Source: Pirellulales bacterium
GTDB lineage: Bacteria > Planctomycetota > Planctomycetia > Pirellulales > JAICIG01
Direction: 5' to 3'
Assembly (NCBI GenBank): GCA_025924495.1
Contig: JAICIG010000056.1
Location: 1 to 24,222 of the forward strand
Length of the DNA stretch: 24,222 nt
Below, one piece after another: positions 4,902-24,222 of the stretch. The notes beneath the pieces were generated by a model. That model saw nothing but the letters and a program-made list of their open reading frames with translations, had not been told where the DNA came from and made no database searches. Within the stretch, counting starts at the first letter, position 1, and every line of letters starts with the position of its first letter. The position numbers and the translations under genes are program-made.

Positions 4902-7277
4902 TTACGGCTGAGATGTTGACGGCGATGCCGAATCGTCGGGCGCCGACCAACGATTTCCCCATGAACTATAAAGATCGTGCAGAAATGCTCGCCAATCTTC
5001 CGCGCTGCGGGTGGGCGGGTAGGGGACCGGCGGCAATGGGTGTGGGGCCTCCCACACGATTTTGAACTGACCGTCCGCTTCAATCTGGCCGATCCGCGGC
5101 GTTTTGAAGCAATGTTGAGTATCAGCGTCCAGCCGCACTTCGCCTCCTGGACCCTGGAATCTTTGCGTCAGCATCGCACGGCGGATTTTCTTCGGTTCCA
5201 CGCTCTTGGCGTCTTCCACCGCTTTGGCCCAAAGCTTGACGCCGTCGTAGGCCGCCTCCATGGCATCGGTCACCGGACGCTGCGGATACTTCTCGTGGAA
5301 GCGTTTGACGAACGAAGCATTCGAGGGCGTGTCGATCGATTGGAAGTAGGTCCAGGCGGCGTAGTCGCCGACAATGTCGGCCAGGCTGAGCGTCCGCAAT
5401 TCTTGCTCGCCGACGCTGAACGACAGCACCGGAGTTTCGCCCGTCTTAATTCCCGCCGACCGCAGCGCGCGGAAAAAGGGAGTGTTGGTGTCGCCATTGA
5501 TGGTGTTGAGGATCATGTCCGGCTTAGCCGTCACGATTTGTTCGACAACCTGATACACTTCCAGGCTTCCCAGCGGCAAGTAGGCCTCGCCCACGACCTC
5601 GCCGCCCAGACGGGCCAGGTAGTCTTTGATGACGGCATTCGCCGTGCGTGGAAATACATAATCGGATCCGATGAGGAAAAACCGTTTCTTGCCCAGCTCT
5701 TTTACGGCCCACTCGACGGCGGGAATGATCTGCTGGTTCGGCGCCGCGCCCATATAGACAATGTTGGGAGACGTCTCGCAGCCTTCGTATTGCAATGGAT
5801 AAATCAGCAGATGGTCGTGCCCTTCGAAGACCGGCTTCACCGTTTTGCGCGATGCAGAAGTCCAGCAGCCGAAGACGGTGCAGACTTTTTCCTTGGTGAT
5901 CAGTCGTTCCGCCTCGCGAGCGAAAGTTTCGGGGTCGGATCGCCCATCGGCCACCATGGCCTTGATCGGTCGACCGAGCAAGCCGCCCTGTTGGTTGATT
6001 TCATCGATGGCGAACAAAGTCGCGTCGACAACGACCATTTCGCTGTTCGCCATCGCTCCCGTGAGCGAATGCAGAATGCCCACCTTGATCGGTTCGCCCG
6101 TCGGGGCTGCAATTGGCATCGGCTGCGACGACCCCCTTACAGACCGCCAGGCGAAGAACGCCGCGGCGCCTGCGCCGCCAATTACAAACAGCGCGAGAAT
6201 CGCCACCAATATCCGCCGCCGAGGACGCAAGGCCGGCTGCTCGACGTTTGTCAACGTCGATACCAACGCGGCGCCGCTCTGACTCGGCAGCGCGATCTGC
6301 GTTTGTCCAGAGAGGGTCGCTGCCACGGCCGCCAGATCGGCCTGCATCTCACGGACCGACTGATAACGGTCGTCAGGCGACTTGGCCATTGCCTTGGCAA
6401 TGATGTGCGTGCAGGCAATGGGAATCTCGGGCGAGACCGAGCGTGGATCGGGGATTGGCCCGTGGCAATGGTTGTACATTACCTGGGGCACGCTCTCGGA
6501 ATTAGGGTAGGGACTTTGACCGGTAAGCAGCGTGTAGTACGTCGCGCCGAGCGAATAAATGTCGCTGCGCGCGTCGACCTTTTGCGCCTGGCACTGCTCG
6601 GGGCTCATGAAAAACGGCGTGCCGATGACCAGGCCGGCCTGCGTCAACTGCTGCGAAGCCTCAGCGGCCGCTACCTTGGCCAGACCGAAGTCAGTGATCT
6701 TTACGGAGCCATCGGCGGCCCAGAGAAAATTGGCGGGTTTGATGTCGCGATGAATCAAGCCGACCGCATGAGCGGCGATCAGGCCTTTACAGGCGTCGAG
6801 CACCGCCTTGGTCGCTTCCAGAACGGAGTAGACTTTGCCTTCGGTCAATCGATCGTTAAGGCTGCCGCCGGGTACGTATTCCAGCACCAAAAAATGGCGG
6901 TCGCCATCCTGGCCAATCTCATAGATGGACACGACATTCGGGTGATTTAATTTGCCCGCAGACTTGGCTTCCGCCTGGAACCGGCTTAACGCCCGTTCGT
7001 CGGCGGCAAGTTGTTCGGCAAGCAGCTTGATGGCCACGTCGCGATCAATCTGCGGATCGTGCGCTTTGAGCACGAGTCCCATGCCGCCGCGGCCCAGAAT
7101 GCCCGTGACTTCGTATTTGCCGAGATTCTTTACCGGCCAGGCAGGAATGGCGGGAGGCGGCGAGGCGGGCGGCGGGTTCACCGGAGTATGCTGTCCACTT
7201 AGCAACGTCTCGGAAAGCTGCGGCAGGACGGGCTCCGCCTTGCTCTCTTGCGTCACAGCGAGCTGTTTCTCATTCAT
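4902..7277 (-). CDS. Ser/Thr protein kinase fused through one membrane segment to a UrtA-like ligand-binding domain
   Basis: A 791-residue predicted receptor kinase. Residues about 55-320 form a Hanks-type kinase with GRGGMG (62-67), the ATP-anchoring Lys in VAIK (84), IHRDIKPAN (175-183), DFG (196-198) and SPE in place of APE (225-227), so all core catalytic residues are present. A basic patch RPRRR (351-355) precedes a single hydrophobic segment (about 356-377). Residues about 396-750 match the whole length of UrtA-type urea/short-amide ABC-transporter binding proteins: VGILHSLTGAMA, the VFGCWTSASRKTVKPVFE region (468-485), IYPLQYEG, AAPNQQIIPAVEWA, GSDYVFPRTANA, ILNTINGDTN, and DYAAWTYFQSI. 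Topology should put the kinase inside and the binding domain outside. The start is the ATG at 7277; the longer TTG frame is rejected. No urt transport genes adjoin it, so sensing rather than uptake is inferred. Ligand and phosphorylation targets are unknown. Confidence 0.93.
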   Translation of the reverse strand: MNEKQLAVTQESKAEPVLPQLSETLLSGQHTPVNPPPASPPPAIPAWPVKNLGKYEVTGILGRGGMGLVLKAHDPQIDRDVAIKLLAEQLAADERALSRFQAEAKSAGKLNHPNVVSIYEIGQDGDRHFLVLEYVPGGSLNDRLTEGKVYSVLEATKAVLDACKGLIAAHAVGLIHRDIKPANFLWAADGSVKITDFGLAKVAAAEASQQLTQAGLVIGTPFFMSPEQCQAQKVDARSDIYSLGATYYTLLTGQSPYPNSESVPQVMYNHCHGPIPDPRSVSPEIPIACTHIIAKAMAKSPDDRYQSVREMQADLAAVAATLSGQTQIALPSQSGAALVSTLTNVEQPALRPRRRILVAILALFVIGGAGAAAFFAWRSVRGSSQPMPIAAPTGEPIKVGILHSLTGAMANSEMVVVDATLFAIDEINQQGGLLGRPIKAMVADGRSDPETFAREAERLITKEKVCTVFGCWTSASRKTVKPVFEGHDHLLIYPLQYEGCETSPNIVYMGAAPNQQIIPAVEWAVKELGKKRFFLIGSDYVFPRTANAVIKDYLARLGGEVVGEAYLPLGSLEVYQVVEQIVTAKPDMILNTINGDTNTPFFRALRSAGIKTGETPVLSFSVGEQELRTLSLADIVGDYAAWTYFQSIDTPSNASFVKRFHEKYPQRPVTDAMEAAYDGVKLWAKAVEDAKSVEPKKIRRAMLTQRFQGPGGEVRLDADTQHCFKTPRIGQIEADGQFKIVWEAPHPLPPVPYPPTRSAEDWRAFLHDLYSSWGNRWSAPDDSASPSTSQP

Positions 7278-9806: not shown

Positions 9807-11225
9807 ATGCATATTCATTTTGTCACGGGACGGTTGGCCGAGTATTCGCTGCGCAAACTGCTGGCGGACCTGGCGCCGAAAGCCGGGTTCAAGTACTCGA
9901 TCGACGTGCTTGGCATCACAGTGGCTGCTTTGATGACTCCCGAGTGGATTGCGCGCCACATCCGCGTGCCGGCTGAAGCGACGAAGGTCCTGCTGCCCGG
10001 CTACTGCCATGGCGATCTGGCTCCGGTGGAAGCAGTAGCCCGCATCGCCGTCGAGCGCGGCCCGAAGGATCTGCGCGAACTGCCGGCTTACTTTGGCCGT
10101 CCGGCGGTCGATGCAAGTCAGTATGGCCGCCACGACATTCAGATTATCGCCGAAATCAATCATTGCCCGCGGCTAACGCGCGATGAGATATCGAGGCAGG
10201 CTGCGGCGCTAGCTGCCGATGGCGCCGATCTGATCGACGTCGGTTGCGATCCGGGCATGACCTGGCCGTTGGTGGGCGACGTGGTGTCGATGTTGCGCGA
10301 CGCGGGACACCGAGTTAGCATCGACAGTCTGAACCCCGACGAGATTGCTCCCGCCGTTCGCGCGGGCGCCGAATTGGTGTTGTCCGTTAATTCGTCGAAT
10401 CGCCAGTACGCCGTCGATTGGGGGTGCGAGGTGATCGCCGTCCCCGATGTTCCTGAGACGCTCGCAGGACTGGACGACACGATCGAGTTTCTCGCCCGGG
10501 CCGGCGTGCCGTTGCGAATCGATCCGGTGTTGGAGCCGATCGGTTTTGGCTTTGCCCGCAGCTTGGGCCGCTACCTGGCCGTGCGCGATCGCTATCCCGA
10601 CGCCGAGATGATGATGGGGATCGGCAATCTCACCGAATTGACCGACGCCGACTCGGCCCCGATCAACGTGCTGCTCCTGGGTTTCTGCCAGGAGTTAGGC
10701 ATCCGGAGCGTGCTCACGACCCAAGTGATCAATTGGGCCCGCACGTCGGTGCGCGAGTGCGACTTGGCGCGGCGGCTGGTGCATTACGCCGTCGAGCAGC
10801 GCTCATTGCCGAAGCATGTCGAGCCGCGGCTGGTGACGCTCAGGGATCCGGCGGTGCTCGAAGCGGGCATGGACGAACTGGACCGGCTCGCCGGTCAGAT
10901 CAAGGATCATAGCTATCGACTGTTCGCCGAACAGGGAGAACTGCATGTGGTCGGCGCGGAGCTGCACCTGCACGACCGCGATCCGTTTGAGTTGTTCGAG
11001 CAACTACAAGCCAGCGGCGTCAAGAATCTCGACGTCGGGCATGCCTTCTATTTAGGCTTCGAGTTGGCCAAGGCCCTCACAGCCCTGGCATTGGGCAAAC
11101 AGTATCGCCAGGACCAGGCGCTGAACTGGGGCTTTTTGACGGCCCCCGAACAGAGCCATCGCGGGCGCAAGGCCGAGCGTGCGAGGCGAGGACTCGCGCC
11201 GGCCGCAGAGCAGGAGGAGATTTAG
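9807..11225 (+). CDS. DUF6513/dihydropteroate-synthase-like protein, H4MPT pathway
   Basis: A 472-residue protein whose central part (about 112-330) is a pterin-binding TIM barrel of dihydropteroate-synthase type: IIAEINHCPRLT (113-124), GADLIDVGCDPGMTWP (139-154) and VSIDSLNPDEI (170-180) match the DHPS strand-end motifs. An N-terminal extension (1-110, with FVTGRLAE at 5-12 and LLPGYCHGDL at 62-71) and the C-terminal part correspond to the DUF6513 architecture. Archaeal and planctomycete relatives are linked to methanopterin rather than folate synthesis; the inferred role is joining the pterin diphosphate to the beta-RFA-phosphate product of MptG. The immediate neighbours pabB, pabA and beta-RFAP synthase support that. 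The start is the ATG at 9807, preceded by a pyrimidine-rich stretch rather than a Shine-Dalgarno site. The stop abuts the pabB ATG. Confidence 0.9.
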   Translation: MHIHFVTGRLAEYSLRKLLADLAPKAGFKYSIDVLGITVAALMTPEWIARHIRVPAEATKVLLPGYCHGDLAPVEAVARIAVERGPKDLRELPAYFGRPAVDASQYGRHDIQIIAEINHCPRLTRDEISRQAAALAADGADLIDVGCDPGMTWPLVGDVVSMLRDAGHRVSIDSLNPDEIAPAVRAGAELVLSVNSSNRQYAVDWGCEVIAVPDVPETLAGLDDTIEFLARAGVPLRIDPVLEPIGFGFARSLGRYLAVRDRYPDAEMMMGIGNLTELTDADSAPINVLLLGFCQELGIRSVLTTQVINWARTSVRECDLARRLVHYAVEQRSLPKHVEPRLVTLRDPAVLEAGMDELDRLAGQIKDHSYRLFAEQGELHVVGAELHLHDRDPFELFEQLQASGVKNLDVGHAFYLGFELAKALTALALGKQYRQDQALNWGFLTAPEQSHRGRKAERARRGLAPAAEQEEI

Positions 11226-12662
11226 ATGCCTCCTGCCAGTCCAGGTCAGTCAGTAATCGCCAGCGAGCCGGCGGTCCCGCTCGTCGAAGAACTCTCTCCA
11301 GGCTTGCATGCGCAGGATGTGTTCTTGCGGCTCGCGAACAAGCCCCATTGCCTTTTTCTTGATAGTGCCCGGCGCGATCCAAAACTCGGCCGCTATTCGT
11401 TTGTGACGGCAGATCCGTTTGAGTACTTGGAACTGCGGGCTGATTCGACAGACGCCTTCGAGCGTCTGGCCACCCAGCTCGTGCCGTTTCGCTCGGCAAC
11501 TCAGCCAGGATTGCCGCCGTTTCAAGGCGGTGCGGCGGGATTATTCAGCTACGATCTTGGTCGGCAATTAGAACGCTTGCCGGCGCCTTGCAAGGATGAA
11601 TTCGGCGTTCCAGCCTTGGCCGTTGGGATGTACGACGTCGTCGTTGCCTTCGATCATCTCCGCGAGCAAAGCTGGCTGATCTCGCACGGTTGGCCGGAGG
11701 CCGATCCTGCGCGCCGGCGCTATCGAGCCGCGGCCCGCTTGCACGAGTTCAAAACCTGGCTTGCATCGCCCCCCTCGGCAATTCGCCGCCAGTCGTCCGC
11801 GAGGGTGCGCCCAGAACAATTGTCGCCGCAGTTTCCCACGAACGTCGCGGACCTGACGAGCAACTTCTCGCGAGACGGCTACCTGCAAGCCGTCGAGCGA
11901 GTGATCGAATACATCGCCGCCGGAGACATTTTCCAAGTTAACTTCGCGCAACGATTGCTCCATCCGGCGATTGACGACGCCGTGGCGCTCTATCTGCGTT
12001 TGCGCGAGCGTAACCCGGCGACATTCGCCGGCTACTTCGATCTCGGCGAGTTTCAGATCGCCAGTGCATCTCCCGAGCGGTTCCTGCAAATCCAGAATCG
12101 GCGCGTCGAAGCTCGGCCGATTAAAGGGACGCGCCAGCGGACTCGACTGCCCGAGGCCGATCTATTCGGCGGCGACGAGTTGCAGGCCAGCGAAAAAGAT
12201 CGCTCCGAAAACGTGATGATCGTCGACCTGTTGCGCAACGATTTGGCGCGCGTGTGCCGTCCAGACAGCGTGCAAGTCACGCAGCTCTGCGGCCTGGAGA
12301 CGTATGAATTCGTGCAGCATCTCGTTTCGGTCGTGTGCGGCGAACTGCGCACCGACCAGCAGCCGCTCGACGTACTCAAGGCCGCGTTCCCCGGCGGCTC
12401 GATTACCGGCGCTCCGAAAGTTCGCGCCATGGAGATTATCGCCGAGTTGGAGCCGACGGCGCGAGGCGCCTACTGCGGCGCCATGGGCTACCTGGGGTTC
12501 GACGGCTCGCTCGATGCGAACATTCTGATCCGCACCTTCACCGCCGGTCGCGGCTGGTGGCAAGCGCCGGTCGGCGGCGGTGTCGTCTTCCAGTCGACGC
12601 CCGCCCTAGAATATGAAGAAACCTGGCACAAGGCCGAAGGCCTGATTCGTTCGCTGCAATGA
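11226..12662 (+). CDS. pabB: Aminodeoxychorismate synthase component I
   Basis: A 478-residue chorismate-binding enzyme of the PabB/TrpE family that converts chorismate and ammonia to 4-amino-4-deoxychorismate. The diagnostic PIKGT (298-302, Lys300) favours PabB over anthranilate synthase, which has PIAGT. Other family motifs are ASEKDRSENVMIVDLLRNDL (321-340), PGGSITGAPKVRAMEII (389-405) and the EYEETWHKAEG C-terminal motif (462-472). Full length for the family. Its ATG immediately follows the stop of the DHPS-like gene, with GGAGGAG-type ribosome sequence inside that gene's end, and its last 4 bases overlap the pabA start, so translational coupling is likely. No separate lyase (PabC) is visible in the window. 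In this context the 4-aminobenzoate is probably destined for methanopterin as well as, or instead of, folate. Confidence 0.94.
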   Translation: MPPASPGQSVIASEPAVPLVEELSPGLHAQDVFLRLANKPHCLFLDSARRDPKLGRYSFVTADPFEYLELRADSTDAFERLATQLVPFRSATQPGLPPFQGGAAGLFSYDLGRQLERLPAPCKDEFGVPALAVGMYDVVVAFDHLREQSWLISHGWPEADPARRRYRAAARLHEFKTWLASPPSAIRRQSSARVRPEQLSPQFPTNVADLTSNFSRDGYLQAVERVIEYIAAGDIFQVNFAQRLLHPAIDDAVALYLRLRERNPATFAGYFDLGEFQIASASPERFLQIQNRRVEARPIKGTRQRTRLPEADLFGGDELQASEKDRSENVMIVDLLRNDLARVCRPDSVQVTQLCGLETYEFVQHLVSVVCGELRTDQQPLDVLKAAFPGGSITGAPKVRAMEIIAELEPTARGAYCGAMGYLGFDGSLDANILIRTFTAGRGWWQAPVGGGVVFQSTPALEYEETWHKAEGLIRSLQ

Positions 12663-13318
12663 TTCTGCTGATCGACAATTACGACAGCTTCGTTTTCAAT
12701 CTCGCTCGTTACTTCGAGCGACTGGGGCAGCCGACGCGCGTCGTACGCAACGACTCCATCGACGCGCGGCAGGCGCGCTCGCTACGGCCCCGCGCGATCG
12801 TGCTGTCGCCCGGACCTTGTGCGCCGCAGCAGGCGGGCTGTTCGCTGGAAGTAGTGCGGCAATTGCACGGCGAGTTTCCGATTTTGGGCGTTTGTCTCGG
12901 ACATCAAGTGATCGCGGAAGCCTTCGGCGGACAGATCGTGCGCGCACCCGAACCGGTGCATGGTCGCGCTGCGGAAGTCTTGCACGACGGCAGCGGGTTG
13001 TTTGCGGACTTGCCTAATCCGTTTCGCGCATGCCGCTATCATTCGTTGGCTGTCGAAGAAGCGTCTTTGCCAGAGTGCCTTAAAGTGACCGCGCGCACTA
13101 AAGACGGCGTGATCATGGGGCTCCAGCACAAGACATTGCCAATTTTTGGCCTGCAATTCCACCCAGAATCTGTCCTGACCGAAGGCGGATTTGAACTCTT
13201 GGCCGGATTCCTGCGGCTCTCGGGGCTGAAGTTGCCAGCCGCAATTCCCGACATCGCCAGCGAACGTCACGAGCCTGAGAGCGATCAGCGGCTGCCTGAA
13301 TCGCCCGTTACTTTTTGA
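12659..13318 (+). CDS. pabA: Aminodeoxychorismate synthase glutamine amidotransferase
   Basis: A 219-residue class I glutamine amidotransferase that hydrolyses glutamine and channels ammonia to PabB. The start MILLIDNYDSFVFNL is typical of PabA/TrpG. The nucleophile Cys79 lies in GVCLGHQ, and the His168/Glu170 pair lies in FHPES; all three triad residues are intact. SPGPCAP (50-56) is the oxyanion-loop region. A tail of about 25 residues beyond the family core is polar and of no known function. It overlaps pabB by 4 bp (ATGA), the usual coupled arrangement of a two-subunit enzyme. PabA and TrpG can be interchangeable in some bacteria; the pairing with a PIKGT-type pabB makes the pABA role the more likely one. 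Confidence 0.94.
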   Translation: MILLIDNYDSFVFNLARYFERLGQPTRVVRNDSIDARQARSLRPRAIVLSPGPCAPQQAGCSLEVVRQLHGEFPILGVCLGHQVIAEAFGGQIVRAPEPVHGRAAEVLHDGSGLFADLPNPFRACRYHSLAVEEASLPECLKVTARTKDGVIMGLQHKTLPIFGLQFHPESVLTEGGFELLAGFLRLSGLKLPAAIPDIASERHEPESDQRLPESPVTF

Positions 13319-13325
13319 GACCATC

Positions 13326-13414
13326 GAATGCGGAACGCGGAATGCGGAATTCGGACATGGAACCGCGGGCGTCCAACGGATGCCCGCGCCGCATCCCGCA
13401 CCCTGCGTTCCGAA
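13326..13414 (+). repeat. Inverted pair of imperfect 7-nt repeat arrays (pabA/DUF447-MptG gap)
   Basis: Left array: GAATGCG, GAACGCG, GAATGCG, GAATTCG (13326-13353). Right array: GCATCCC, GCACCCT, GCGTTCC, GAAT (13391-13414), an imperfect reverse complement of the left. The arrays are separated by about 37 nt and occupy most of the 115-bp gap between pabA and the next gene. The heptad sequence differs from the array at 9711-9799, but period, copy number and inverted layout are the same. Confidence 0.6.
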
Positions 13415-13422
13415 TGGGCATC

Positions 13423-13428
13423 GGGAGG
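13423..13428 (+). promoter_or_regulatory. Ribosome binding site that fixes the DUF447-MptG start
   Basis: GGGAGG ends 5 nt before the ATG at 13434. An in-frame ATG at 13380 has no such site and would add 18 Pro-rich residues encoded by repeat sequence, so the 13434 start is chosen. Confidence 0.8.
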
Positions 13429-13433
13429 TCCCG

Positions 13434-15008
13434 ATGATCCTTGAAGGACTGATCACGACGATCAACGAAGACGGCAGCGTCAATATCTCGCCGATGGGGC
13501 CGATCGTCGATGAGGCGATGAAAGAACTCGTCTTGCGGCCGTATCAGACGTCGACCACCTATCGCAATCTCAAACGGACCGGGCAGGGCGTGTTGCACGT
13601 GACCGACGACGTCGAGCTTTTGGCCCGCACGGCGGTTGGCAAACTTGTTCCGGCGCCAAAACTTCTTCCGGCTTACAGAGTACAGGGGCAAATCCTGGCT
13701 GATGCGTGCCGTTGGTACGAATTTCAGGTGCGGTCCATTGACGACCGGCAGGAGCGGACGACGATCGTCGCCGAAGTCGTAGAGACCGGACGAATACGCG
13801 ATTTCTTCGGCTTCAATCGAGCCAAGCACGCCGTGCTCGAGGCGGCGATCCTGGCGACGCGCATCAAGTTTCTGCCCGCCGCAGAAATCCTCGCTGAATT
13901 CGACCGCCTGGCCATCGCCGTCGAGAAAACGGCGGGGCCGCAAGAACGTCGGGCCTTCGAATTCCTTGCCGAATATGTTCGCAACTCCCTGAGCGGCGCC
14001 CGGCCGTGCGAGCGAATAGCCGGTCCTGCAGCCTCGGCTCCCGCCGTCCGCATCGTGTCTCCTAGCCGGCTGCATTTCGGCATGTTTTCCTTCGGTCGTC
14101 CCGAAGTGCGCCAGTTCGGCGGAGTAGGGGCGATGATCGACCAGCCGCCGCTCGAGCTTCGGTTTGGCCCTGCCGAGCGTTTGGAGACAGTCGGTCTAGG
14201 AGCCGCCCGAGCGCGCCAATTCGCCGAGCATGCGGCACAGCAGGCCGAGTGGCTGCCAGAAGGAATCCCCTGCCGGATTGAAGTCGTCAGCGCGCCGCCC
14301 TCGCATGTAGGACTAGGGAGCGGAACGCAACTGGGAATGGCCGTGGCGCAAGGTCTGAATGCGTTTTTCGGCGGTCCTTGGCGTACGCCGCAGGACTTTG
14401 CTCGGGCCGTGGGACGCGGCCGGCGCTCGGCGATCGGACTTTATGGCGCCCTTGCCGGCGGGCTGATCATCGAAGCGGGAAAATACGCGGCAGACCAGAT
14501 TTCGCCGCTGATCAGCCGGGTCGAGTTGCCTCTTGATTGGAGGTTTGTCCTCGCCTGGCCGCGCGCCGTGCAAGGACTCTCCGGAGAGGCCGAAACGAAT
14601 GCGTTCGAAAGGCTGCCGCCGGTTGCGGCCGAGGCCACTCGGGCGCTGACCAGCGAGGCGTTGCTGGGGCTGGCGCCCGCCGCCGCAACGGGCGACTTCG
14701 AGCGGTTCGGCGAAAGCCTTTACCGCTTTGGCCGCCTGGCCGGCCGCTGTTTCGCCGCTGAACAAGGCGGCGATTATGCTAATCCGCGGGTTGCTCAGCT
14801 CGTCGACTGGCTGCGCCAGCAGCACGTTCGCGGCGTGGGGCAATCTTCGTGGGGACCCGCCGTATTTGCTCTGACCGCCGATCTCGCCGCCGCCGAGGCT
14901 TTGACCGCGAAACTTCGCAGCAATCGCGATTTTCCCGACTTGGAATTCGCGATCGCCGCGCCCGCAAACCGAGGCGCCATGATCACCGGATATGGCGATT
15001 CTAATTAG
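13434..15008 (+). CDS. DUF447 protein fused to beta-ribofuranosylaminobenzene 5'-phosphate synthase
   Basis: A 524-residue two-domain protein. Residues 1-185 match DUF447 (MILEGLITTINEDGSVNISP, then GVLHVTDDVELLART and FFGFNRAKHAVLEAAI), a flavin-reductase-like family restricted largely to organisms with H4MPT. Residues about 205-520 are a GHMP-fold beta-RFAP synthase (MptG type): SPSRLHFGMF (209-218), the phosphate-binding motif PSHVGLGSGTQL (289-300) and GRGRRSAIGLYG (328-338). MptG condenses 4-aminobenzoate with PRPP, losing CO2 and diphosphate, and commits pABA to methanopterin. A linker rich in Ala/Pro (186-204) joins the domains. The fusion sits at the end of the pabB-pabA run, so the enzyme that uses pABA is encoded directly after those that make its precursor. 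DUF447 function is not established. The fusion itself suggests that the two domains act in the same pathway. Confidence 0.92.
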   Translation: MILEGLITTINEDGSVNISPMGPIVDEAMKELVLRPYQTSTTYRNLKRTGQGVLHVTDDVELLARTAVGKLVPAPKLLPAYRVQGQILADACRWYEFQVRSIDDRQERTTIVAEVVETGRIRDFFGFNRAKHAVLEAAILATRIKFLPAAEILAEFDRLAIAVEKTAGPQERRAFEFLAEYVRNSLSGARPCERIAGPAASAPAVRIVSPSRLHFGMFSFGRPEVRQFGGVGAMIDQPPLELRFGPAERLETVGLGAARARQFAEHAAQQAEWLPEGIPCRIEVVSAPPSHVGLGSGTQLGMAVAQGLNAFFGGPWRTPQDFARAVGRGRRSAIGLYGALAGGLIIEAGKYAADQISPLISRVELPLDWRFVLAWPRAVQGLSGEAETNAFERLPPVAAEATRALTSEALLGLAPAAATGDFERFGESLYRFGRLAGRCFAAEQGGDYANPRVAQLVDWLRQQHVRGVGQSSWGPAVFALTADLAAAEALTAKLRSNRDFPDLEFAIAAPANRGAMITGYGDSN

Positions 15009-18862: not shown

Positions 18863-19381
18863 TTAGCGGCTGAATCTCGGCGCGCGGTAAGGATTGCCGC
18901 TGTCGATAGGAAAGGCCAGGGGGGCCGCAAACGAGGCCCCGCCATAGCCGAGCTCGCGCAGTCGATCCGCGATCGACTGCGGCGTATCGGGTGCGAACGC
19001 GATCAAGTCGATGCGACCCTCGGCAAAGTCAATGGTCAGCGTGCTGCCGCCGTATAACGTCGTCCAGCTTTTGCGGCGGTCCGTCGGTTGAAAGTCGGCG
19101 ATCGACGACCGGGGCAGGAAAAAGTTGCGGCCATCTCTGGCCAACAGTCGCTGCGGTTCGTCCTTTAAGCCGTCATATATTGATTCGCGCCTTCTCCTGG
19201 CGGCGAGCGCCCAATAAGCCAGCGGCGTAAAGACCAGTAGTTGTGCCGCTGCCGCACGCCAACTGAAAACCTGCCCTGCCACCCATGCGCCATAGAGCCC
19301 GTCGGAGCATGCGTAGACCTTGAAGAAACGGTCTCTCTCGACATAGAACGGCTGCAATGCATGGAAAGAGAATTCAGCCAT
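18863..19381 (-). CDS. Membrane protein of unknown function (intact parent of the 3' repeat copy)
   Basis: A 172-residue protein beginning MAEFSFHALQPFY. One clear membrane helix is visible at about 43-61 (AAAAQLLVFTPLAYWALAA), with a weaker hydrophobic stretch before it, followed by the basic ARRRR and a soluble C-terminal part with alternating hydrophobic residues (STLTIDFAEGRIDLIAF) that could be a small beta domain of PH-like type. No family was recognised with confidence. The ATG at 19381 has no strong ribosome site. The first 19 codons and about 93 bp upstream are repeated at 23242-23391, where the rest of the gene is missing. Convergent with the GH88 gene. Confidence 0.7.
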   Translation of the reverse strand: MAEFSFHALQPFYVERDRFFKVYACSDGLYGAWVAGQVFSWRAAAAQLLVFTPLAYWALAARRRRESIYDGLKDEPQRLLARDGRNFFLPRSSIADFQPTDRRKSWTTLYGGSTLTIDFAEGRIDLIAFAPDTPQSIADRLRELGYGGASFAAPLAFPIDSGNPYRAPRFSR

Positions 19382-22080: not shown

Positions 22081-23154
22081 TTACTTGTCGCCGGGAAGCA
22101 AATCTCTCATCCTCCAAACCTTGACAAGCCCGCCAAACCCTACCGCGGCGAGCAAGTTCCCATCCGGAGATATCGCCATCTGACTTATCGCCTTTGGAAA
22201 TGCTACGAACTCGGCCTTTGCCTTCCCAGAGTCGGAGTCCCAAAATACGATTCGTCCTGGATCTTCTACGCTTTCCGCACTGTCACTTATTACCCAGCGG
22301 CCTTCTTGGGTGCAGATAATCTGCGAAATATCGCCTTGCGACCGCTCGAAGCGCCTAGTCACCCGTTCGGTGACAACATCGACGAGTATTATCCTCTTTG
22401 ATGCTGCGCCGTCACTTGGATCAAGCGTCGCTATCGACCGGCCGTCGGATGCAAACGAAACAACCTTGCTTCCGCGAAAAGAGTGCACGCTATCGCGCGT
22501 TGCAACGTCCCAAATAGTCCCCCGGCCGCCGAGAGTGACCGTAGCAATCGTCCTGCCATCCGGCGATATGGCGGCGCCGCTGATTGAGTCGAGAGCATTA
22601 TCGTCAACAACTTTGATTGTGCCGACCCGGCTCAACGTGGGGGGGTCCCAAAACGCAATCTCCGTTCCGGAGCTGCTCACGAGAACACGATCTCCCGCAG
22701 CATATGCGAGCCATTCCACTCCATCGGCATGCGCGTTCTTCACTAACCGGGTCGTTCCTCCCTGAACTCGATCAATTCGAATGTCGCCACCTGCGGGAGG
22801 AGGCAGGAAGAAGCTCGCCGACACAAGAAACCTATGATCGGCACTGAATGCGAGACCTTCAATTTGTGATCTTTGCGACTCCCAGCCACGATGTGGAGGA
22901 AAACTTTCCGGGGTCCCCCAGCGTCCTACTCTCACAAGGAAGATCTTAGCATCGGACGTCCCCCACGCTAAGAGGGCGTTGTCGCTCGAGTAGGTCAATG
23001 CAGTTACAACAGCATCAGATCCTTGAGACTTATATATGGGCGCCGGGTTGACGCGGCTTGTACATGCCACCGCCACAAGAGTTAATGGAAGCAAAGCGAC
23101 GACGCTGGAGCGCGCTAGGGATTGTTTGTAACGTCGTGAAAAGTCCATATGCAT
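22081..23154 (-). CDS. WD40-like beta-propeller lipoprotein
   Basis: A 357-residue predicted lipoprotein. A basic start (RRYKQSLARS) and hydrophobic core lead to a weak lipobox ending in Cys31 (LVAVAC). The remainder contains about six or seven WD40-like blades, with recurring units such as VTALTYSSDNALLAW, AAISPDGRTIATVTL followed by GTIWDV, and QMAISPDGNLLAAVG followed by VKVWRM at the C terminus. Such propellers act as protein-binding platforms; the partner is unknown. The frame stays open to 23556, but the ATG at 23154, which has an AGGTG ribosome site and gives the signal peptide, was chosen. The truncated repeat copy upstream is in the same frame, which explains the long extension. It is the first gene of the minus-strand run between the direct repeats. 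Confidence 0.82.
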   Translation of the reverse strand: MHMDFSRRYKQSLARSSVVALLPLTLVAVACTSRVNPAPIYKSQGSDAVVTALTYSSDNALLAWGTSDAKIFLVRVGRWGTPESFPPHRGWESQRSQIEGLAFSADHRFLVSASFFLPPPAGGDIRIDRVQGGTTRLVKNAHADGVEWLAYAAGDRVLVSSSGTEIAFWDPPTLSRVGTIKVVDDNALDSISGAAISPDGRTIATVTLGGRGTIWDVATRDSVHSFRGSKVVSFASDGRSIATLDPSDGAASKRIILVDVVTERVTRRFERSQGDISQIICTQEGRWVISDSAESVEDPGRIVFWDSDSGKAKAEFVAFPKAISQMAISPDGNLLAAVGFGGLVKVWRMRDLLPGDK

Positions 23155-23241
23155 GCACCTGTCTTCACATGCGACGCAGTGAGAATTAGGAGAACACTGA
23201 CGGCTTCTGGGATAAGATTTTGGTGTCTTGATTCGCCTCCG

Positions 23242-23298
23242 GAAACGGTCTCTCTGGTCGTAGAACGGCTGCAACGCATGAAAAGAGAACTCAGCCAT
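23242..23298 (-). pseudogene. 19-codon remnant of the membrane-protein gene
   Basis: From an ATG at 23298 the minus strand encodes MAEFSFHALQPFY then DQRDRF, matching the start of the intact gene at 19381 (which has VERDRF). After this the sequence has no similarity to the intact gene. The remnant keeps its ATG and its upstream region, and its frame runs without a stop into the lipoprotein gene, so initiation here would add 48 residues before the lipoprotein start. Confidence 0.75.
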
Positions 23299-23391
23299 GG
23301 CGATTCGCACTCGCAGACTTATCGGCTGCAACCATTCTACAGCGCCGATCTCACAATTCCGAAACTGCGTGACGCGTTCGCAGGCGCGCCG
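23242..23391. repeat. Direct repeat, copy B
   Basis: Ungapped counterpart of 19325-19474, about 87% identical by hand count. The match stops on the lower-coordinate side within codon 19-20 of the embedded reading frame, and fades on the upper side after GGCGCGCCG. Confidence 0.9.
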
Positions 23392-23554
23392 AGGCCAAGC
23401 GGGACGCGATGCTTGACTGTTCCCCTCGAGTTCGCATGATGGTTTCCGGCTATGCTGGCGAGTGGGCCAGCGACATGGAAGCCAAGGCGCAAAGGAACAC
23501 GCTTGGCGAAGGAACAGGCCGAACGCGGCGATCCGAATCAACACGAGAGACCGC

Positions 23555-24222
23555 ATGCAACAAGTTTCCGCTTTGCCGCTGGTTTATGAATTCAGCCGCC
23601 ACCTGGCGCGGCGCTGCACGATTCAGCCGGGCGAAACGCTGCGCGTGGAATCGGAAGATGCGCTTTCAGGTCAGATTCACACCCCGGGCGATCGGCGCGA
23701 TAAGACGAAGGTTCCGTACAGCAATCCGGTCGCGGGCCCGATTTATGTCGAGGGCGCTGAGCCGGGCGACTTATTGGCTGTGAAGATCCTTGAAATTCAA
23801 TCGCGAGACGGCCAGTGCGCCACCTACACGGGCGCCCCGAAGCAGTTGAGCGAATGGCTCGGCGCCGATGTGCCGCACGGCGCCCATGTCTGCCCGATTC
23901 GAGACGGCTGGATTTTTTGGAGCGACGAGATCGCTATTCCCTACCAGCCGATGCTCGGCTGCATCGGCACGGCGCCCGATTGGGGCGTGCCCTCCACGTC
24001 TCCTGCCGGATCGCACGGCGGCAACCTCGATCTGGTGGAGGTCGCTCCGGGCAGCACCATCTATTTGCCGGTCTCGGTTCTTGGCGGCTATCTCTATCTG
24101 GGCGATGCGCACGCGGCGATGGGGCATGGCGAGCTGTCGGCCACGGGCTTGGAGATGGCCGCTCAAACGGTCATCACGGTCGACATCGTCCGCGAGTCGC
24201 CGCTTGTCGGCGTGCGAGTTGA
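23555..24222 (+). CDS. Acetamidase/formamidase family protein, partial (open at window end)
   Basis: The first 222 codons of an FmdA/AmdA-type amidohydrolase, running off the window without a stop. The family hydrolyses formamide or acetamide to ammonia plus the acid. Visible motifs: HTPGD (42-46), NPVAGPIYVEGAEPGDLLAV (57-76), MLGCIGTAP (133-141), GSHGGNLDL (152-160) and GDAHAAMGHGE (183-193), the last corresponding to the GDxHAxxGDGE metal/active-site segment with His at the usual first Asp of DGE. No signal peptide. The ATG at 23555 is preceded by a GAGAG stretch. It is transcribed away from the lipoprotein gene. Substrate cannot be decided, because many family members have untested specificity; a link to the amide/urea-type sensor at 4902-7277 is only suggestive. 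Confidence 0.9.
   Translation, partial: MQQVSALPLVYEFSRHLARRCTIQPGETLRVESEDALSGQIHTPGDRRDKTKVPYSNPVAGPIYVEGAEPGDLLAVKILEIQSRDGQCATYTGAPKQLSEWLGADVPHGAHVCPIRDGWIFWSDEIAIPYQPMLGCIGTAPDWGVPSTSPAGSHGGNLDLVEVAPGSTIYLPVSVLGGYLYLGDAHAAMGHGELSATGLEMAAQTVITVDIVRESPLVGVRV

Follow-up and report, generated by a model that had tools for sequence, protein, structure and literature searches.

How does a binding domain of the type that normally delivers its ligand to an ABC transporter come to form the outer half of a Ser/Thr kinase, and what would such a receptor sense? The question is raised by a gene of a Pirellulales bacterium on a contig of 24,222 nucleotides (JAICIG010000056.1, assembly GCA_025924495.1), the whole of which was analysed and is referred to here as the window. 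The original prediction, made from the DNA letters alone, placed the gene correctly at 4902–7277 but gave no strand. The gene is located on the minus strand, with an ATG at 7277, the sequence AAAAGG ~10 bases upstream and a stop codon ending at 4902, and encodes a protein of 791 amino acids without an internal stop.

Kinase, membrane helix and ectodomain in one chain

The N-terminal half of the protein contains a Hanks-type Ser/Thr kinase domain (residues 55–306; 6360–7115, minus strand), which matches the Pfam Pkinase profile over positions 1–253 of 263 (E 2.4e-48) and in which the catalytic Lys, the Glu, the HRD Asp, the Asn and the DFG Asp are present as K84, E103, D178, N183 and D196. A protein search gave 5664 matches among 7999 candidates scored, and from the best 120 of these, which were listed, together with the query translation, 110 kinase rows were drawn. 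All core kinase residues had been predicted to be present, and in this alignment the five residues, as well as E227 and D239, are invariant in every covering row (104 to 107 rows per site), the invariant sites belonging to the catalytic Lys, Glu, HRD, DFG, SPE and F-helix positions. Foldseek places the kinase half with PknB, and the protein is a predicted PknB-like Ser/Thr kinase. The cut-off of the PASTA kinase model NF033483 is missed (311 of 450 bits, with only residues 53–325 matched), and Pfam finds no PASTA repeats in the 791 residues.

The kinase domain is followed by a juxtamembrane stretch (residues 307–355; 6213–6359, minus strand), for which model confidence is mostly low, and by a single membrane helix (residues ~356–378; 6144–6212, minus strand) whose flank towards the kinase is positively charged. 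Hydrophobicity over 19 residues peaks in windows that begin at 354–360, directly after an RPRRR run, and the AlphaFold model has a helix at 354–383, so that sequence and model agree on the one helix and the positive kinase side expected of a ligand-gated receptor kinase. Among the matches listed, a hydrophobic 19-mer lies between the two domains in 98 of 103 rows, query included, and in 92 of these 98 the Lys/Arg count on the kinase side equals or exceeds that on the other side. We infer that the UrtA-type domain is located outside and the kinase inside the membrane. Helix and ectodomain are connected by a linker with many Gly, Ser, Pro and Ala residues, which is ~18 residues long in the window protein (379–396; 6090–6143, minus strand), the median being 22 in the 98 rows with a clear helix (103 examined, query included). 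In the AlphaFold model, which was built from 36 aligned sequences (mean pLDDT 79.6), the kinase and the ectodomain are mostly confident, the ends and linkers are loose and the kinase loop 205–217 falls below a pLDDT of 50; with a pTM of 0.54, the model does not fix the placement of the two halves relative to each other.

The C-terminal half is a UrtA-type ectodomain (residues 397–757; 5007–6089, minus strand), which matches Pfam Peripla_BP_5 over profile positions 1–361 of 363 with 505 bits, over the cut-off. Pfam, hydrophobicity and the open frame thus agree with the original prediction that an intact Hanks-type kinase, one membrane helix and a full-length UrtA-like domain are joined in one chain. 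Residues 380–791 are 96% identical to another database record (P0005), and given this match and the full-profile matches, the fusion is far beyond chance. Decay of either half, which had also been considered absent, is ruled out by the open frame, the nearly complete profiles and the intact kinase core and binding pocket.

UrtB, UrtC, UrtD, UrtE and urease alpha gave no match in the 232 window ORFs (≥60 codons, E up to 10), in keeping with the prediction that no ABC transporter is encoded nearby, and two histidine kinase references and one chemoreceptor reference were likewise unmatched in these ORFs (E up to 10). The only match to the reference set is a gene of the FmdA/AmdA (acetamidase/formamidase) family at 23417–24220 on the plus strand, which is cut by the window end and lies ~16 kb from the kinase gene. 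A cluster at 9807–15008 (plus strand) contains a DUF6513/pterin-binding gene and a DUF447/GHMP-kinase-type gene, with what we take to be pabB/pabA-like genes between them, and looks like pterin or C1 metabolism. Two ORFs on the minus strand (18863–19381 and 22081–23556) share the stretch MAEFSFHALQPFY, followed by similar residues, and may have arisen by a local duplication. A conserved neighbourhood was sought and rejected, as shared neighbours were limited to close relatives in the nine fusion loci compared (L096 and L099 long runs, L003 and L006 a single gene). When 13 window genes were tested, L004 had matches to the DUF1501-type and PSD1-type genes, and L097 to the DUF1501-type gene and to the SDR-type gene, which there directly follows the fusion; a PSD-type gene adjoins the fusion in L101. 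These families are very common in planctomycetes, and the shared neighbours are therefore not read as a link to the fusion. According to Pfam, a Porin_O_P gene adjoins the UrtA-type gene in L006 (9121–10563, minus strand) and in L105 (10928–12193, minus strand), and a gene of L003 (3015–4544, minus strand) is 87% identical to that of L006.

The binding pocket and its conservation

The structure closest to the ectodomain in Foldseek is 8tg1 (52% identity, named a periplasmic urea-binding protein), followed by 7s6e, 7s6f and 8hic and then by AmiC; the NCBIfam UrtA model TIGR03407 has a cut-off of 492.75 bits, which the window protein misses with 468.4. For Prochlorococcus UrtA, nine residues have been named that lie near the bound urea (PMC10392092), and all nine are found in the window protein when it is compared with the urea-bound structure 8hic, as W472, S474, Y493, Q496, E498, Y540, F542, N594 and S621 (spanning 5415–5864, minus strand). 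The complete UrtA-type binding domain that had been predicted is thus present with its ligand-contacting residues, the lack of which would have spoken against the prediction.

The two-domain architecture was confirmed, but it is not a single oddity: in our own profile search a kinase is present in 109 of the best 120 of 5664 relatives, and the fusion belongs to a large family. Across the 111 ectodomains of these 109 kinase-bearing proteins, 102 have all nine pocket residues, whereas nine core columns drawn at random were fully conserved in a mean of 5.5 domains and never in more than 85 (5000 draws; 111 domains among the matches listed). Conservation in the listed matches ranges from 0.94 to 1.00 at the pocket sites, against a core median of 0.85. 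To judge from these alignments, the nine residues are held by selection much more tightly than an average column. The pocket is changed in nine of the 111 domains among the matches listed, comprising three with WSYKEYFAS, single other changes and tandem copies. P0002 and P0004 are kinases with two tandem UrtA-type domains, and the first copy of each is among the nine exceptions, as is the second copy of P0002, which has E for Q; the second copy of P0004 has an intact pocket.

The pocket signature of the window protein is also found in UrtA-type genes beside UrtB/UrtC and urease, and we infer that urea is the probable ligand of the ectodomain. The same cannot be said of every relative. The kinase fusion of genome G145 (L101, 8690–11122, minus strand), whose frame is intact, has the pocket CSYNEYFTG, which suggests another ligand; the UrtA-type gene next to FmdA in L111 (genome G110) has WSYFEYWVS. 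Relatives adjacent to chemoreceptors have WSYAEYWV[SA], so there is no one ligand common to the branch in its entirety.

A second feature of the family is located in the C-terminal tail (residues 758–791; 4905–5006, minus strand), which contains a W...WGxxW element and, in the model, a helix at 759–772. The element follows the domain in 10/10 kinase-fused loci, in 119/124 domains of the listed matches and in 0/24 transporter-linked domains, counts that describe rather than test, as the pattern was written from the kinase-fusion family itself. Elsewhere it was found in 3/6 histidine-kinase-adjacent, 2/3 chemoreceptor-adjacent and 1/2 L017/L105-type loci and in the one TrmB fusion (1/1), and it was found in none of the histidine-kinase-fused (0/3) and sigma-54-fused (0/2) genes or in L015 (0/1).

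Signalling and transport relatives of the ectodomain

The neighbours of UrtA-type genes were labelled by comparison with UrtB, UrtC, urease, FmdA, histidine kinase, chemoreceptor and Ser/Thr kinase references, and sensor neighbours were checked with Pfam. A Ser/Thr kinase is fused to the UrtA-type domain at ten loci (L001–L006, L096, L097, L099 and L101), of which L001–L006, from a named genome collection, are all planctomycete, L004 being cut at the contig start. A stand-alone UrtA-type gene lies just before a gene for a dCache-HAMP histidine kinase in L007, L008, L009, L016 (where the neighbour is a hybrid histidine kinase) and L103, and just before a dCache-HAMP-MCP chemoreceptor gene in L011, L013 and L014. 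In L010 it precedes a dCache fragment with receiver and kinase genes behind it, and in L015 a gene for a dCache-HAMP-PAS protein that is cut by the contig end. L017, at a contig end, and L105, where a histidine kinase is encoded on the opposite strand at a distance of 1.5 kb, were placed in neither the signalling nor the transporter class. UrtB and UrtC gave no match in the 21 signalling loci (the ten kinase fusions, the ten stand-alone genes and the TrmB fusion L012) with flanks of up to 10 kb (short in L001, L003, L004, L013, L015 and L103); in 24 other loci UrtB or UrtC is found near the UrtA-type gene, often together with urease. Scored against the window ectodomain, transporter-linked genes reach at most 401 bits and signalling or L017/L105-type genes at least 402, with the exceptions of the kinase fusion L101 (387), of L098, L100 and L102 (281–350) and of L038 and L045 (234–243).

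Several further fusions were observed. L012 (5057–7000, plus strand) encodes a protein that joins a TrmB-type DNA-binding domain to a UrtA-type domain with the pocket WSYEEYYNS. An N-terminal UrtA-type domain is fused to hybrid histidine kinases in L098 (6642–9881, minus strand), L100 (8638–11523, plus strand) and L102 (7545–10415, minus strand), which have no apparent signal peptide, two receiver domains (and, in L098, an Hpt domain) and the pocket WSYQEYFNS or WSYQEYYNS. In the Bacillales loci L038 (2392–4794, plus strand) and L045 (9998–12352, plus strand) it is fused to a sigma-54 activator, with the pocket YSYLEYYVI; in L038, activator and Fis-type HTH were identified by Pfam, and L045 was read by eye only. 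In P0003 (1252 aa), a trypsin-like peptidase domain and a likely membrane helix are combined with two UrtA-type domains, of which the first has an altered pocket.

Trees of the ectodomains included 24 of the 120 listed matches and were midpoint-rooted for drawing only. In the 80-row tree, the 31 kinase-fused rows, one of which (P0019) is a fragment that lacks the kinase domain, form one group (support 100/99); a core of 47 signalling rows is supported at 99/95; 53 rows including the histidine-kinase fusions group with a support of 83/94, 22 transporter rows are set apart (89/76) and three FmdA-type rows are found elsewhere. When four rows with long branches are retained (both L040 rows, AmiC and L017; 84 rows), 48 rows stay together (98/88), L017 included, and L015, L016 and the histidine-kinase fusions fall outside the signalling branch, which they join at 83/94 only after removal of the four; the sigma-54 fusions are outside in both trees. 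The signalling core is hence clear, the branch around it is not firmly established, and a split between signalling and transport branches that counts all signalling rows appears moderately supported (83/94). The nearest relatives in the tree carry a fused kinase, protease or TrmB regulator, or are encoded just before membrane histidine kinases or chemoreceptors, which suggests that the window ectodomain belongs to a signalling branch and is more than a component taken over from a transporter. The contrast that the original prediction drew with UrtA of transporters is therefore sharper than was claimed, since the relatives of the ectodomain are themselves signalling proteins.

In 104 proteins among the matches listed, query included, both domains were measured, and in five of them (P0024, P0084, P0027, P0002 and P0004) the kinase is 34–41% and the ectodomain 62–72% identical to that of the window protein; the remaining kinases are at least 60% identical. 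P0084 and P0027 were left out of the trees, and the tandem forms P0002 and P0004 are placed directly beside the main kinase-fused group. P0024 sits within this group despite its divergent kinase, and the ectodomain has therefore been joined to a different kinase at least once.

Among 244 planctomycete genomes, for which 85% completeness was requested, the kinase fusion is found in five (G002, G132, G145, G178 and G223). UrtB is over the cut-off in 15 and urease alpha is found in 16 of the 244, none of the five fusion genomes being among either; as urease is present in only 16/244, its absence from these five cannot serve as proof. A Peripla_BP_5 match above 340 bits is present in 23 genomes, 13 with UrtB (11 of these with urease) and ten without UrtB, all of which also lack urease: the five fusion genomes, G237, G033, G211, G007 and G082. 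Histidine-kinase fusions are found in G237 and G033, and also in G223, and the genes of G211 and G007 are sensor-adjacent. When the genomes of L001, L003, L004 and L005 are added, the UrtB cut-off of 250.3 bits is reached in none of nine fusion genomes and none has a clear urease (G223 is marginal at 22.6 bits, or 23.1 with neighbours, for a cut-off of 23), although several are metagenome assemblies and may lack genes. Use of urea via urea carboxylase was rejected, as 15/15 genomes match only about the first 440–455 of 1201 positions and none is over the cut-off. Searches for urease, UrtB and urea carboxylase thus revealed no obvious use for urea in the fusion genomes, a point against urea as the signal.

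A proposed receptor kinase for urea and its alternatives

We lean, by a small measure, towards a membrane receptor kinase that senses urea without importing it and whose activity is controlled by the ligand. The UrtA-type domain, outside the inner membrane, would bind urea with the pocket that transporter UrtA uses, and close around it, as has been proposed from simulation for the two lobes of UrtA (PMC10392092). Through the single helix, closure would alter how the PknB-like kinases in the cytoplasm pair or are oriented, and these would then phosphorylate themselves and cytoplasmic targets; ligand control of the kinase is what this arrangement would imply. In PknB, it is pairing that brings the kinases together. 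As the linker looks short and flexible, ligand-dependent pairing of the ectodomains seems the likelier route here, over a rigid push through the membrane.

The same receptor might instead respond to another small amide such as formamide or acetamide, perhaps in connection with the FmdA-family amidase at the window end, ~16 kb from the kinase gene. FmdA is matched in two of the five fusion genomes of the sample (G002 and G223) compared with 16/244 overall, and structure titles show the related AmiC with acetamide and butyramide. However, the window pocket has the urea signature, from which the FmdA-adjacent gene of L111 differs, AmiC has Y, P and V where the pocket has W, Q and N, and three of the five fusion genomes are without an FmdA match at the threshold used; the link to formamidase is weak, and we consider this alternative unlikely. 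That the chief role of the ectodomain is to offer a surface for docking or pairing, for example to a partner protein, with no small molecule as the main switch, would fit the loose linker and the strongly conserved tail, whose element is confined to the kinase-fused loci when these are compared with transporter-linked domains. Such a role would hardly account for a pocket conserved so far above the core median, and it seems to us less likely again. It is most improbable that the ectodomain continues to supply an ABC permease from another part of the genome, with the kinase reporting on transport: the domain folds like a transporter binding protein and distant UrtB-like permeases (130–133 bits) are encoded in G001, G002 and G003, but these scores are far from the 250.3 bits that none of the nine fusion genomes reaches, and in G001 and G003 the permease has its own weak Peripla_BP match on the same contig.

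The urea receptor kinase that we favour can be placed between several known systems. It resembles UrtA of UrtABCDE and the solved urea-binding proteins (8hic, 7s6e, 7s6f and 8tg1) in fold, domain length and the nine 8hic pocket residues, but it is fused to a kinase, tethered by a helix and under the NCBIfam UrtA cut-off, with no UrtB over the cut-off in the fusion genomes searched. With PknB/PASTA-type receptor kinases it shares a PknB-like kinase inside, one membrane helix and an ectodomain outside, which is of the UrtA type instead of PASTA repeats. AmiC of Pseudomonas aeruginosa is the amide sensor that controls AmiR (1pea and 1qo0), and thus, like the window ectodomain, a UrtA relative used for sensing and not for transport; it differs in acting on AmiR and not on a kinase, in its amide ligands and pocket residues and in being a separate chain. 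In the GlnH-GlnX-PknG system of actinobacteria, a binding protein outside has been proposed to control a Ser/Thr kinase inside, but through three separate proteins, with another binding protein and with Asp, Glu and Asn as ligands (PMC6069109). An actinomycete survey reports five genes in which SBP_bac_3, a binding-protein domain of another class, is combined with Pkinase in one gene (PMC13293324), and a survey of AI-2 receptors includes dCache_1 with Pkinase among predicted pathways (PMC12268683). Accessory domains of planctomycete kinases have been sorted into 105 groups (PMC11032199); 'Peripla_BP' is absent from the main text of that survey, the domain lists of which are in supplementary tables. 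In searches of an open-paper library, most results of which were judged only on title and opening lines of the abstract, no paper was recognised as describing a UrtA-type–kinase fusion, and GlnH-GlnX-PknG and AmiC are the nearest precedents.

Extended to the family, and with rather less confidence than we place in the urea receptor kinase itself, we tentatively propose that UrtA-type domains comprise a transport branch and a sensing branch, the latter being a urea and small-amide sensor module for many outputs, including Ser/Thr kinases, histidine kinases, chemoreceptors, a TrmB regulator and a trypsin-like protease. Planctomycetes would have built from it a one-chain urea receptor kinase in cells with no usual means of importing or splitting urea. 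The main value of the kinase–UrtA fusion is that crystal structures have defined the ligand and pocket of the ectodomain family, so that what stimulates a large set of receptor kinases becomes predictable and directly testable. If the proposal is true, urea would be a signal, read as information, in bacteria without the usual urea transporter and urease.
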